The position numbers and the translations under genes were made by a program. This document shows positions 10,658-38,024 of a stretch of 64,000 nucleotides of DNA, one piece after another. Source of the stretch: an uncultured Pelagibacteraceae bacterium. GTDB lineage: Bacteria > Pseudomonadota > Alphaproteobacteria > Pelagibacterales > Pelagibacteraceae. The DNA is taken from contig CACHLB010000004.1 in NCBI GenBank assembly GCA_902580505.1, forward strand, positions 1 through 64,000, written 5' to 3'. The notes under the pieces were generated by a model. The model was not told the DNA's origin and did not search any database. It saw only the letters and a program-made list of their open reading frames with translations. Every line of letters begins with the position of its first letter. The first letter of the stretch is position 1.

Positions 10658-11959
10658 ATGACTAAACATTTAAAAAAACTTGTCGGTCCTTTAGTAAGTT
10701 TGTTTTTCTTACTAAACATGACAAGTGTAGGTTATGCCGAATCTACAGTCTCTGCAGAAGTTGGATTTATTTTTAATACATTTCTATTTTTAGTTTGTGG
10801 TTTTCTTGTCATGTTTATGGCTTGCGGATTTGCGATGCTAGAATCAGGAATGGTAACTTCAAAAAGTGTATCTGTAATTTGTGCAAAAAATATAGGATTA
10901 TTTTCTATCGCTGGAATTATGTTCTGGATGGTTGGTTATAATCTAGCATATGGAATTCCAGAAGGTGGCTATATAGGAACATTCACACCGTGGTCTGATG
11001 CAAGTGCTGTTGATACAGGATATGCAGATGGTTCGGATTGGTATTTCCAAATGGTATTCTGTGCAACAACAGTATCAATTGTATCTGGTACGTTAGCAGA
11101 AAGAATTAAATTATGGCCTTTCTTCTTATTTGCAGCAATTTTATCAGGAATCATTTATCCAATTGTCATGGGATGGCAGTGGGGTGGTGGCTGGTTAGCC
11201 GCTTTAGGTTTCTCTGATTTTGCTGGTTCAACTCTTGTACACTCAACTGGTGGTGCTGCAGCTTTAGCAGGTGCTATGTTGTTAGGTGCAAGAACAGGAA
11301 GATTTGATAAATCAGGTGCAGCTAAGCCAATGAGACCATTTGCAGCTTCTTCTATACCTTTGGTAACAGTTGGAGTATTTATTTTATGGTTAGGTTGGTT
11401 CGGTTTCAACGGTGGTTCACAGCTTGCTATGGGAACTTTCGATGATGCAGTAGCTGTATCAAACATATTTATTAATACAAACTTAGCAGCGTGTGGTGGT
11501 GTTTTAGCAGCAGCAGTAATTACTAGATTAATGTATGGTAAAACTGATGTAGTTCAAATGCTTAACGGTGCGATTGGTGGATTAGTTGCAATAACAGCTG
11601 AACCATTAGCGCCAGCACCTATAGCAGCAATATTCATCGGTGCGATCGGTGGATTAATAGTAGTGTTTGGAACAAAACTATTATTCTCATTTAAGATTGA
11701 TGATGTTGTTGGTGCAATACCAGCTCACTTATTTGCTGGAGTTTGGGGAACATTAGCTGTTCCACTGACAAACTCTGATGCAAACTTTAGTGCACAGTTA
11801 ATCGGTGTAATCTCGATCAACGCATTTGTTTTTGTAGTATCATACATTGTATGGGCAATTATGAAAAACACTATGGGTATCAGATTAAGTAAAGAGGCTG
11901 AACTGAAAGGTACAGACGTAACTGAAACTGGTGTAATAGCTTACGCTATAAGAGACTAA
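10658..11959 (+). CDS. amt: ammonium transporter
   Basis: Amt family motifs GWQWGGGWLAALGFSDFAGSTLVHSTGGAAALAGA, FNGGSQLA. Confidence 0.97.
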   Translation: MTKHLKKLVGPLVSLFFLLNMTSVGYAESTVSAEVGFIFNTFLFLVCGFLVMFMACGFAMLESGMVTSKSVSVICAKNIGLFSIAGIMFWMVGYNLAYGIPEGGYIGTFTPWSDASAVDTGYADGSDWYFQMVFCATTVSIVSGTLAERIKLWPFFLFAAILSGIIYPIVMGWQWGGGWLAALGFSDFAGSTLVHSTGGAAALAGAMLLGARTGRFDKSGAAKPMRPFAASSIPLVTVGVFILWLGWFGFNGGSQLAMGTFDDAVAVSNIFINTNLAACGGVLAAAVITRLMYGKTDVVQMLNGAIGGLVAITAEPLAPAPIAAIFIGAIGGLIVVFGTKLLFSFKIDDVVGAIPAHLFAGVWGTLAVPLTNSDANFSAQLIGVISINAFVFVVSYIVWAIMKNTMGIRLSKEAELKGTDVTETGVIAYAIRD

Positions 11960-33165: not shown

Positions 33166-34623
33166 ATGAACAAAATCGTATGGTTCAGGAACGATCTACG
33201 TGTATCTAATAATGATGCATTTAACGAAGCTGCAAAATCAGGAAAGATTTTACCAATTTACATATTTGATAAAGAGTATCACAAATTACCAACATCAAGC
33301 TCATTCCATTTAGATTTTTTAAAATCATCATTAGATGATTTATCAAAAACACTAAGTGAAAAATATAATGCTAAACTCAATATATATTATGGAGATACAT
33401 TAGAAATTTTAAGACACTTAACTGATGAATTTAAAATAAATGAGGTTTATTCAAATATAATATTCAAGAACATGTATATAACTAACTTAGATAAAGAAGT
33501 TAGTTTTTTATTTAAAGAAAAAAATATTAATTGGAAAATATCAAATCAATTTGGCGTTCAACTAAATCATAGAATAAGAAATAAATGGTCATATAATTGG
33601 AATAAATTCATAGATAGTGAAAGCATTAATTCAAATTTAAATTGTGAGTTCATTTCTGATAATTATGAAGAGGATTTATCAAAAATAGAAACAAATAATT
33701 TAGAAAATGGCAAAATTCAAATTGGTGGAAGACAAAAAGCAATTCAACTTTTAGATTCTTTCCTTAATGATAGATCAGAAAACTATCAAAAAGAAATGTC
33801 TTCACCAATAACAGGAGAAACTTCATGTTCTAGATTAAGTCCACATATTGCATTTGGAAATATTTCTATTAAAGAAATTTTTAAAAAAACTAATGATAAG
33901 TTAAAATCCAATTTATCTTTTTCAAAAAAGAAATCCTTAATTGCTTTTAAAAGTCGCTTAGCCTGGCACTGTCATTTTATTCAAAAGTTATATGATGAAC
34001 CAGAAATTGAATTTAGAAATATGAACAGCGCTTACAATGGAATAAGAGAAAATGATTTTAATGAAGATTATCATTTAGCATGGAAAAAGGGAACTACTGG
34101 TTATCCTTTTGTTGATGCTTGCATGAGGTACCTCAGAACTAATGGATGGATTAATTTTAGAATGAGAGCAATGTTAGTTTCATTTGCGTCTTATCAATTA
34201 TGGCTTGATTGGAAAAAAACATCAAAACATTTAGCAAAATTATTTACAGATTATGAGCCAGGTATTCATTATTCACAGTTTCAAATGCAATCAGGAACAA
34301 CAGGAATAAATTCAATAAGAATTTACAATCCAATTAAACAATCAATTGATCAAGATCCTACAGGAGAATTTATTAAAAAATGGGTTCCAGAATTAAAAAA
34401 CGTTCCAGGAAAATTAGTTCATGAACCATGGAAATTAACATTCATTGAACAAAAGGGAATAGATTTAAAAATTGGTAAAGATTATCCTTCACCAGTAGTT
34501 GATAATAAAATATCAACAAAAATTGCGAAAGAAAAAATCTGGAATGTTAAGAAAACAACAGAAGCAAAAATTATTTCAGCTGAAGTATTAAATAAACACG
34601 CGAGCTTATCTCAAAGAAGATAA
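33166..34623 (+). CDS. phrB: deoxyribodipyrimidine photolyase / cryptochrome family
   Basis: VWFRNDLRVSNNDAF, TGYPFVDACMRYLRTNGWINFRMRAMLVSFASY. Confidence 0.95.
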   Translation: MNKIVWFRNDLRVSNNDAFNEAAKSGKILPIYIFDKEYHKLPTSSSFHLDFLKSSLDDLSKTLSEKYNAKLNIYYGDTLEILRHLTDEFKINEVYSNIIFKNMYITNLDKEVSFLFKEKNINWKISNQFGVQLNHRIRNKWSYNWNKFIDSESINSNLNCEFISDNYEEDLSKIETNNLENGKIQIGGRQKAIQLLDSFLNDRSENYQKEMSSPITGETSCSRLSPHIAFGNISIKEIFKKTNDKLKSNLSFSKKKSLIAFKSRLAWHCHFIQKLYDEPEIEFRNMNSAYNGIRENDFNEDYHLAWKKGTTGYPFVDACMRYLRTNGWINFRMRAMLVSFASYQLWLDWKKTSKHLAKLFTDYEPGIHYSQFQMQSGTTGINSIRIYNPIKQSIDQDPTGEFIKKWVPELKNVPGKLVHEPWKLTFIEQKGIDLKIGKDYPSPVVDNKISTKIAKEKIWNVKKTTEAKIISAEVLNKHASLSQRR

Positions 34624-34874: not shown

Positions 34875-37466
34875 ATGAAATTATCTGAATTATTTCAGCA
34901 AAATGGCTTTGATTTAGGAAGTCTAAAAGAATCTTTTGGACTAATAGATGGAATATCAGAGCACATAATAGCTGCAAGTGATGAAGTTTTAGCAAAGCAG
35001 CATCAAATTTCAGAAAACATTTATTTTTTAATTAAAGGCAAAGCTACATTTACCAAGTATTTTGAAACTAAATCTATAACCTTTGCAAAAATAACAAAGC
35101 CTGCAACACCATTAGGTATATCTGGACTTAATCAACCCAATAGATTTATGGGTGAAATATTTATTGAAGGTGGAACAGAATATATCTCGATAAAACTAGA
35201 TGATTTAAGAGATTTACAACAAAAAAATAGTAAACTTATATCAACATTATACTCAGCAATTTCTTTTTTTTCTTTCCAACTGCTTGTCTCTTCAAGAAAT
35301 TTAAACACTTTGTATAAAGATGATGAAATACAAATTTCTCCAGGCATCCCATCAGAAAAAAGTATTACAAATATACATAGAATTAAATCTGCTACTTTTT
35401 TTTCAACACTTACTGATAATGACTTAGAAAAGTTTATTAAATTAGGTAATATTAAGATGTATTCATCAAATCAATATATAGTTAAAGAGGGAGACGTTTC
35501 TAAAGGTTTAAAGATATTATTAAGTGGTAAAGTTGATGGCTTATTCCACAACTTTATTAATGGAAAAATAAGAAGAAATTTTAGAACTCTAACTAGAGCT
35601 GGTATTGCGCTAACTTTATCTTCAGGGAAAGGAGATTTTTTTAATCCATACACAATTAAATCTACTAGGGATACAAAAGTTTTACATATTTCTAACGAAG
35701 CACTTGAAAATCTGATTATTTCTGACCCAGAATTATCAATAAAGATTTTCAAAAGACAATTGTGGCAGTTAGGACGTTTTCAACAAAGTGCAACTGGTCT
35801 GACAAAATATTCAGCGGAAAACGAATTAGAATTTGTTAATTTATTATTGAAAGATAATACTGCAAGAATACCTGCTAGTTCTAAGTTATATAGTATTCCA
35901 CATTTATTGAAGAGTACTCATACTTACGCAATGGCATTTGATGTGGTTTACGAACTACTTATTAAAGGAAATGAAATAGAAAAATCATTATCTAGTTTAA
36001 TAAAAGATACTTTAAATAATTTAGAAAGAGAGTCTCGTTTCCACAGCCAATTAAATATTATTTATAATAGAGTTTCAAATTCTTCTAGTAATTCAGATAA
36101 AACAAAATTAAGAGAGTTAACCAATTCAAATTTCACCAAAGCTTTTGATAATGTTAAATATGTAATTAAGGGTTGGGAAAATTTGCCAGATGAACCAACA
36201 AATATTTTTTTCTACAATCACTTAGCAGCTATAGATGATAATCAGCTTGCAAATGGGCATTCGTTTTCAATCGACAGTCATTTCATCAGTTCAAAAATTT
36301 TATATCCAAAATATAACGATGGAGGCCAACGTATCGTTAGAACAAGTCGGAACACAGAATTTTGGAGATATAATTACTATGAAAATTTAGATTACATTTT
36401 TGTTCATACCCCAGAGTCTGATAAGTTGGACGAAAGCGAAGAGGAAAAGAAATTAAGAAAACAAAAGCTTTTTGACGAAGCTCAAAAGGTATTTAATCAA
36501 AAACAACCGATTGTAATTGCCCCCGAAGGAACATCAGAAACAGAAGATAATAAAACAATAACATCTCCAGGACCATTTAAAGCTGGAGCATTTAATCTTG
36601 CATTTAAACTGAATCCTAAACCAAAACTAATTCCAATTGCCCTTGCTAATTTTGATTATCCAGTTTCTAAAACAATATATTCAGCAGTTATTAAGGAGCC
36701 AATAACTATAAGTGATCATGTCAAAGATCCAGAAAATCAAGAGGAAATGAAAAGCTTCTTAGATAATTATAGAACCAAATTTAGATCTTATGTAGAAGAA
36801 GCAATTGATTTGGCTAAAAATGTTCAAGACAACATAGAAAAAATAGAAAATTTGAAAACTAATGTAAATTTAGTCAGTCCAGTTGAGGAAGAGTTTGAGC
36901 TCGACGTTAGAGAATTAGAACATAATTCTTTTCAACAGACGAAAACAAATAACAGTGTTGCCCTGTATGGAAGTTCGACTTTTAAAATGTGGGATAATGC
37001 TAAAAACGATTTATCAATAAATAATCTTTATAATTTAGGCTTTGGGGGTTCAACTTTAGTATCTTGTAGAAGATATTTTGATAGACTGGTTGCTCCTTTA
37101 AACCCATCTAATCTTTTCTTTTATGCTGGAGATAATGATATTGGTTATGGAATGGATAGTGATGAATTGTTAAAAGAATTTTTATTATTTTCTAATCAAG
37201 TTGAAGAAAAACTACCAAGAGCGAAATGTTTTTTTATTTCAATTAAGCCTAGTCCTTTTAGAAGGGATCTTATGACAACAATTTTAGATGCTAATTCAAA
37301 GATAAAAAAACACTTAACCAATTTAAAAATGTGGGATTACGTTGATATTACAACACCCATGATAAATGCAGGTTATGATAAGTTTTACGATGAAGATCCA
37401 TTACATATGAACGAACTTGGATACAGTTTATTAAGTAAGCTTGTAAGAGACAAAATTTATAATTAA
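34875..37466 (+). CDS. multidomain protein: cNMP-binding-like region(s) + PlsC-like acyltransferase + SGNH hydrolase
   Basis: YSSNQYIVKEGDVSKGLKILLSGKVDG (cNMP-like); NHLAAIDD (HX4D) and APEGTSE (acyltransferase); YGSSTF, GFGGSTL, AGDNDIG, DPLHMN (SGNH blocks). Confidence 0.8.
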   Translation: MKLSELFQQNGFDLGSLKESFGLIDGISEHIIAASDEVLAKQHQISENIYFLIKGKATFTKYFETKSITFAKITKPATPLGISGLNQPNRFMGEIFIEGGTEYISIKLDDLRDLQQKNSKLISTLYSAISFFSFQLLVSSRNLNTLYKDDEIQISPGIPSEKSITNIHRIKSATFFSTLTDNDLEKFIKLGNIKMYSSNQYIVKEGDVSKGLKILLSGKVDGLFHNFINGKIRRNFRTLTRAGIALTLSSGKGDFFNPYTIKSTRDTKVLHISNEALENLIISDPELSIKIFKRQLWQLGRFQQSATGLTKYSAENELEFVNLLLKDNTARIPASSKLYSIPHLLKSTHTYAMAFDVVYELLIKGNEIEKSLSSLIKDTLNNLERESRFHSQLNIIYNRVSNSSSNSDKTKLRELTNSNFTKAFDNVKYVIKGWENLPDEPTNIFFYNHLAAIDDNQLANGHSFSIDSHFISSKILYPKYNDGGQRIVRTSRNTEFWRYNYYENLDYIFVHTPESDKLDESEEEKKLRKQKLFDEAQKVFNQKQPIVIAPEGTSETEDNKTITSPGPFKAGAFNLAFKLNPKPKLIPIALANFDYPVSKTIYSAVIKEPITISDHVKDPENQEEMKSFLDNYRTKFRSYVEEAIDLAKNVQDNIEKIENLKTNVNLVSPVEEEFELDVRELEHNSFQQTKTNNSVALYGSSTFKMWDNAKNDLSINNLYNLGFGGSTLVSCRRYFDRLVAPLNPSNLFFYAGDNDIGYGMDSDELLKEFLLFSNQVEEKLPRAKCFFISIKPSPFRRDLMTTILDANSKIKKHLTNLKMWDYVDITTPMINAGYDKFYDEDPLHMNELGYSLLSKLVRDKIYN

Positions 37467-37475
37467 TATTTTTTA

Positions 37476-38024
37476 ATGAATTTTAAAAAATATCTATGGA
37501 AATGTAGATTGTTAGTCCTCAATACGCCTAATTACAGTCATCCAGAATATAAAAGATCAAAAGAATTGTATCAAAAAGAAATTAAAGGCTTTCACAAAAG
37601 GTATATAAAATTAGTTACGAAATTAGATAAATCAAAAAAATTTAAAGTTACTTTAATTGGTTTTGATGGCAAAATAAAAATTGAGTTAGATAAAATATAT
37701 ACAAAAAAAATCTTTGAAATAGTCGATAAAATGCCAATGAATAAACTAATCAAAGATAAAAAATTTAAACCATTAAATCTTTCTTTATTTTCAGATTATA
37801 AACCAGAGACAACCTTAAATGGCTTAGGTTTTAAAGATAAGGAGAAAGCATTATTTACTGTTTCAGCTATAAAAAAAAGACCAATAAAATATCAAGTAAA
37901 TGTTATTGCAACTATGTTAGGTAGAGCTAAAAATCATCCAAATAAAACAAAAGACATGAATGATGCAATAATTGTATTTAACAAATGGATGGAAAATTAT
38001 AAGAAAAATAAAAAAAATGATTGA
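37476..38024 (+). CDS. DUF4174-like N-terminal region plus small C-terminal conserved-looking domain
   Basis: LWKCRLLVLNTPN...KVTLIGFDGKIK; C-term GFKDKEKALFTVSAIKKRPIKYQVNVIATMLGRAKNHPNKTKDMNDA. Confidence 0.5.
   Translation: MNFKKYLWKCRLLVLNTPNYSHPEYKRSKELYQKEIKGFHKRYIKLVTKLDKSKKFKVTLIGFDGKIKIELDKIYTKKIFEIVDKMPMNKLIKDKKFKPLNLSLFSDYKPETTLNGLGFKDKEKALFTVSAIKKRPIKYQVNVIATMLGRAKNHPNKTKDMNDAIIVFNKWMENYKKNKKND

Follow-up and report, generated by a model that had tools for sequence, protein, structure and literature searches.

A single open reading frame in a SAR11 genome that appears to join nucleotide-binding, acyl-adding and acyl-removing domains raises the question of whether these modules truly share one polypeptide and, if so, what they do together. 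The frame lies at positions 34875–37466 of the 64,000-nucleotide stretch of Pelagibacteraceae DNA that was analyzed (the window), on the forward strand, like the domains, motifs and DUF4174 gene located below by window coordinates. An initial annotation, made from the letters alone, had described it as an 863-aa protein with a cNMP-binding (CNB) segment, a PlsC-like acyltransferase and an SGNH hydrolase in that order, and had suggested regulated lipid remodelling or acyl exchange.

Gene integrity, distribution and neighborhood

The frame opens with ATG and runs through 863 codons without an internal stop, and the opposite strand is closed and full of stops. All three Pfam families matched above their gathering scores. 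An AlphaFold (AF2) model built from 22 sequences (mean pLDDT 84.8, pTM 0.75) gave a pair of CNB beta-rolls followed by a stretch of helices, an alpha/beta acyltransferase and an SGNH domain. Together with Foldseek these results bear out the ORF and its module order, more fully given as tandem CNB, helical region, PlsC/GPAT-fold acyltransferase and SGNH hydrolase; every sequence motif quoted in the initial annotation was found in the protein. Hydropathy gave no transmembrane segment anywhere in the protein (highest 19-residue mean 1.53). A promoter and terminator scan returned no more than shuffled sequences did, and DNA repeats within the gene were limited to short, imperfect ones.

The gene is single-copy in its host assembly (1.09 Mb, 36 contigs, 86.5% complete), and other Pelagibacteraceae records carry near-identical copies. 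We recovered 86 orthologs spanning the full length, most of which come from separate single-cell assemblies, and pairwise dN/dS over the whole gene was about 0.03–0.17 and low in every module, with the first CNB domain the least constrained in most pairs. The gene is under strong purifying selection. A chance ORF, an assembly chimera or a decaying pseudogene is refuted by this ortholog set and is extremely improbable, given also that dN/dS is far below 1 and that distant lineages keep the same domain order; the three-module architecture on one polypeptide is close to certain. No relative was found in viral contigs or phage records, and we rejected a phage origin. A plasmid origin was likewise set aside: among the matches listed in plasmid records, only a Persicobacter gene pair (described below) covers most of the query, and the others listed match the SGNH part only.

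Within the Pelagibacteraceae the gene occurs in 8 of 147 sampled genomes, from two genera. It is also present in 39 of 120 sampled genomes of a second alphaproteobacterial order, which we take to be the HIMB59/AEGEAN-169 group; there it is confined to one genus and conserved over its full length at 55–57% identity. The three-module order also occurs in two further, distant proteobacterial lineages, with full-length homologs at about 29–30% identity in five genomes of g397, a genus of another class of the phylum, and in three genomes of f117. CNB-acyltransferase proteins without an SGNH domain occur in f189 and f65 (loci L124, L125, L126), so the acyltransferase does not require the SGNH half. 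In f189, a PF05448 (AXE1, acetyl xylan esterase-family) gene lies near the stand-alone CNB-acyltransferase (L124 11903–12853, L125 6437–7459) and is possibly a different esterase partner.

The pairing of the two enzyme domains is independently supported by Persicobacter sp. JZB09 (Bacteroidota; locus L127), where they are encoded by separate adjacent genes: the gene for the CNB-acyltransferase part (655 aa) stops at 10893, and 1 nt separates it from the SGNH gene (209 aa), which begins at 10895. In a tree of SGNH sequences, the fused domains and the Persicobacter SGNH fall on one side with 93/95 support, with one long stand-alone row among them. This topology fits a single origin of the pairing, as far as a tree with long branches can suggest one, and is not proof of it.

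Among the loci compared, no neighbor is common to all lineages, which leaves no universally shared gene to name a substrate. The sole gene close enough to suggest an operon encodes a DUF4174 protein (37476–38024), 9 nt 3' of the fusion ORF and outside it; it is conserved there in those Pelagibacteraceae loci whose sequence covers the site and is a possible operon partner. Directly upstream in the window is a photolyase-type gene (33166–34623, 485 aa). Photolyase genes adjoin or lie near the fusion gene in most Pelagibacteraceae loci and flank it on both sides in L006 and L007 (L006 143–1253 and 4073–5203); in the second order, many loci have one roughly 4 kb upstream (e.g., L063 586–2067). They are missing at L025, L030, L035 and L049 and from the distant lineages, and we therefore set the photolyase aside as functional evidence; its proximity may reflect a shared genomic neighborhood, not function. 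At those same four loci the 5' flank upstream of 6001 differs among close relatives (transport genes; a nitrilase-like gene in L025) and the downstream DUF4174 and FG-GAP genes are retained, which suggests a recombination edge on the 5' side. The interval between the DUF4174 and FG-GAP/UnbV genes (L009 8600–11021 and similar loci) is a small variable spot: extra genes, such as three related ORFs of 173–184 aa in L009, are present in some single cells and absent from others.

The tandem CNB module and its possible ligand

The N-terminal part of the protein forms two CNB domains. CNB domain 1 (34875–35297, residues ~1–141) consists of a beta-roll and C-helix and is degenerate in sequence; CNB domain 2 (35367–35801, residues ~165–309) corresponds to the PF00027 match (1.7e-9, 37.9 bits against a cut-off of 27.5, best stretch 195–282). 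AF2 placed the beta-rolls at about 29–107 and 192–273, and Foldseek against the PDB retrieved tandem CNB proteins (PKA R subunits and PKG, best E 5.2e-11). TM-scores to these were low, mostly 0.33–0.38 by target for chains of that length, with rmsd of 12–22 Å, and we read this as two CNB domains differently placed relative to each other. The cNMP-binding-like segment of the initial annotation, and the second, degenerate copy that it suspected, are thus both real as folds.

Its proposal of nucleotide sensing fared less well. The canonical CNB phosphate-binding cassette is FGE[LIV]AL..PR (PMC2246266). The corresponding cassette of CNB domain 1, TPLGISGLNQPNRFM (35106–35150, residues 78–92), keeps the Gly and Arg and has Ile in place of the canonical Glu (Trp in distant homologs). 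It reads LGISGLNQPNR in SAR11 and [IFL]GWSA[FL]R.P.R in most distant homologs, and LG[I/V/W]SxL..P.R across homologs where the canonical form has FGE..AL..PR, so that the Glu is replaced by Ile, Val or Trp in every homolog with this domain. No phosphate-binding cassette is recognizable in the alignment of CNB domain 2 in the SAR11 lineage, and the FGE motif is absent from both domains of the fusion protein. The fusion protein is also the sole PF00027 match in the host genome. Class III cyclases (PF00211) gave no match in the host genome (86.5% complete), nor did they in the six Pelagibacteraceae carriers searched, of which four are 97–99% complete; class I cyclases (PF01295) were found neither in these genomes nor in four of g397.

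Because both domains lack FGE and cyclases of classes I and III were not found, control by cAMP or cGMP is unsupported, and the protein probably does not sense cAMP. A lipid-remodelling enzyme regulated by cAMP or cGMP through canonical sensing, as first proposed, could draw on the reality of the CNB folds, on the Gly and Arg retained in the first cassette, and on class III cyclases present in three carriers of the second order; set against the replaced Glu, the missing second cassette and the cyclase searches in SAR11, we consider it quite unlikely.

CNB domains with other responses are known. Kinetoplastid PKA R subunits (6h4g, 6hyq) share the tandem CNB fold and altered cassettes with the fusion protein, and their CNB domains no longer respond to cAMP and answer instead to purine nucleosides (PMC10959531). 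The alterations differ, however: the kinetoplastid proteins have another residue in place of the Arg and bind ribose through an additional Glu, whereas the first CNB domain of the fusion protein retains the Arg and lacks the canonical Glu; the output domains differ as well. Further examples are CooA, which responds to heme, and CprK, whose ligand is of the chlorophenol type (PMC2246266). Several homologs show tandem CNB similarity to TIGR03896, a bacteriocin-type transport-associated protein; the fusion protein scores 18.3 bits against this model's curated cut-off of 161.05, over the CNB part only.

The acyltransferase and SGNH hydrolase domains

A helical region (35802–36146; residues 310–424, helices 317–424) with no Pfam match, delimited by AF2, a second model and Foldseek, leads into the PlsC/GPAT-fold acyltransferase domain (36147–36842, residues 425–656). 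The PF01553 match of this domain (2.3e-7, 31.1 bits against a cut-off of 23, residues 502–590) spans the second half of the profile only (61–131 of 132). Plastid GPAT has a two-part layout in which helices precede the catalytic domain, as they do in the fusion protein. The second model, of residues 305–660 alone (mean pLDDT 85.9), retrieved plastid-type GPATs first (8ia1, 3.5e-7; 1iuq, 4.4e-7), followed by Thermotoga maritima PlsC (5kym, 9.1e-6). The GPAT alignments cover more than 350 columns, helical region included, but their rmsd across the entire fragment is ~12 Å, which makes the likeness to the two-part layout a loose one.

Beyond the fold, the domain shares with PlsC and plastid GPAT a candidate catalytic His, H449 (36219–36221), which falls on the His of motif I when aligned to T. 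maritima PlsC (5kym_A), and the PEG of motif III (E551-G552-T553, 36525–36533; Pfam and alignment). The APEGTSE block named in the initial annotation holds up, with PEG invariant in the aligned homologs and the residue after it variable (PEGT, PEGQ, PEGE, PEGN). Its reading of NHLAAIDD as HX4D survives only in part. The letters are present, with D454 (36234–36236) as the Asp; however, the match is lineage-restricted: this aligned position is D in the Pelagibacteraceae and E in the second order, whereas g397 has A or P and the stand-alone relatives have M, T or P; f117 also has E there, without the His. The conserved acid is instead D467 (36273–36275), 18 residues past H449 and, in the AF2 model, at the N-terminal end of the helix that follows (466–480). 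It is kept in each aligned homolog that retains H449, giving the family-wide motif NHL-x(n)-L[PA]N...D[STA][HQ]F. Both residues are conserved in SAR11 and the second (sister) order, in g397, and in the stand-alone relatives. D467 is thus our candidate for a displaced motif I Asp, and the alignment suggests an insertion between the acyltransferase His and Asp. In contrast to PlsC and GPAT (PF01553; 5kym, 1iuq, 8ia1), the fusion family has no conserved HX4D, and the protein has no membrane helices and carries CNB and SGNH domains.

A housekeeping PlsC role is ruled out, since an ordinary 232-aa PlsC gene lies elsewhere in the host genome. That gene (host assembly G000, contig 3, 64405–64785; L145 1339–2037) has HX4E (SHQSMFET) instead of HX4D and FPQATR instead of PEGTR. 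Profile comparison with it gave a weak match around motif III and none helping motif I.

The C-terminal SGNH hydrolase domain (36897–37463, residues 675–863) matched PF13472 at 1.1e-7 over residues 715–851, with 33.0 bits against a gathering score of 32.9. Its assignment is secure despite this 0.1-bit margin because of the structural and motif evidence. Foldseek returned SGNH esterases (1.5e-9; 7pzh at TM-score 0.85 by target length), the closest solved structures being sialate O-acetylesterases. By alignment, the catalytic set comprises the nucleophile S701 in YGSST (36975–36977), N754 in block III, GDND (37134–37136), and D841-P-L-H844 in block V, DxxH (37395–37406). S701, N754, D841 and H844, along with G725, are invariant in all aligned SGNH-bearing homologs, fused or stand-alone, and the four blocks listed in the initial annotation (YGSSTF, GFGGSTL, AGDNDIG, DPLHMN) are accordingly sound. 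All catalytic blocks and the fold are shared with SGNH/GDSL hydrolases (PF13472), among them the stand-alone proteobacterial proteins at L107, L108 and L137 and the solved structures 7pzh, 6njc and 3p94. The relatives are mostly stand-alone, several with an N-terminal hydrophobic stretch that by eye resembles a signal peptide, whereas the domain here is C-terminal in a protein with no such stretch. Because the SGNH family includes carbohydrate esterases, the substrate need not be a lipid.

Conservation is uneven between the two enzymatic halves in one lineage. Genomes of f117 (L121, L122, L143) retain the SGNH residues but have neither the acyltransferase His nor D467, so coupled chemistry is not obligatory there. 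This loss, together with the constancy of the SGNH residues, the variable residue of motif III and the partial PF01553 match, favors an alternative in which SGNH esterase action is the main activity, under CNB control, and the PlsC-like domain mainly binds an acylated substrate or the membrane. Elsewhere, H449 and D467 are conserved together, and within SAR11 constraint on the acyltransferase domain is similar to that on the SGNH domain (dN/dS 0.02–0.06). Both findings count against this alternative, which we consider unlikely.

Comparison with known systems and a proposed acyl exchange

The component families are all known, and their combination is apparently undescribed. The initial annotation knew of no enzyme with this order of domains, and neither did we find one in the literature searched, a scope that excludes preprints and most subscription journals; no NCBIfam model scored above its cut-off for the fusion protein. 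A survey of 30 CNB families, drawing on ocean metagenomes, makes no mention of acyltransferases (PMC2246266). Two groups of enzymes resemble the fusion protein in layout. In the AT3-SGNH proteins OafA, OafB and OatA and the MBOAT-SGNH pair PatA/PatB, an acyltransferase is fused to or paired with an SGNH domain (PMC7448272, PMC12148441). There the donor is a multi-pass membrane protein and the SGNH domain lies outside the cytoplasm, unlike the soluble PlsC fold with CNB domains found here, and the AT3 membrane domain (PF01757) gave no Pfam match in the fusion protein. Neuropathy target esterase and the PNPLA6-7 enzymes carry CNB domains on a lipid-acyl enzyme, as the fusion protein does. Papers on these enzymes include PMC5704489 and PMC6995513. 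Their catalytic domain is a patatin phospholipase, and they have neither an acyltransferase nor an SGNH domain; the patatin domain gave no Pfam match in the fusion protein.

The AT3 and MBOAT systems suggest an acyl relay, in which a soluble cytoplasmic PlsC-type donor would load an acyl group onto the SGNH serine, and from there the SGNH domain, acting as a transferase, would deliver it to the final acceptor. The known acyltransferase–SGNH pairs do hand over to the SGNH domain (PMC12148441, PMC7448272), and the fusion, with the adjacent Persicobacter genes, implies close cooperation. Yet the known relays carry acyl groups across a membrane, which a soluble protein lacking transmembrane segments has no need to do, and f117 keeps the receiving SGNH residues after losing those of the acyltransferase. 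We regard a relay as improbable.

Our leading, though unproven, interpretation is still regulated lipid remodelling or acyl exchange. That an acyl-adding and an acyl-removing fold sit together on one chain, as first claimed, is established by Pfam, AF2 and Foldseek, and a soluble or membrane-peripheral cytoplasmic enzyme of ligand-gated deacylation and reacylation is plausible though short of probable; its substrate, ligand and coupling we infer. The SGNH domain would deacylate a glycerolipid-type or other acyl-ester substrate, and an acceptor of the same class would then be reacylated by the GPAT/PlsC-fold domain with acyl-CoA or acyl-ACP as donor, the two activities being kept as a pair in one chain. 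The tandem CNB module may serve as an allosteric gate governed by a signal different from canonical cAMP/cGMP binding, or by protein contact. Our preferred guess for the acceptor is glycerol phosphate or a lysolipid, because the helical region and acyltransferase loosely resemble the layout of the soluble plastid GPAT. The most specific form of this proposal, with both reactions acting on one substrate pool in the cytoplasm under a gate with a non-canonical ligand, is a possibility that we consider rather less likely than not.

SAR11 cells are among the commonest in the sea and their genomes are very small, so strong selection on an 863-aa accessory protein in some of them is worth explaining. 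The fused pair of SAR11 and the split pair of Persicobacter offer a means of studying how the two enzymes cooperate, and CNB domains without canonical cassettes, in genomes where class I and III cyclases were not found, make other CNB ligands testable on a soluble protein. If the exchange is indeed gated in this non-canonical way, it would represent a new regulated mechanism of lipid remodelling and a new class of CNB ligand; if acyl exchange under ligand control is correct, it would give a lineage with little regulation a new route of lipid adjustment.
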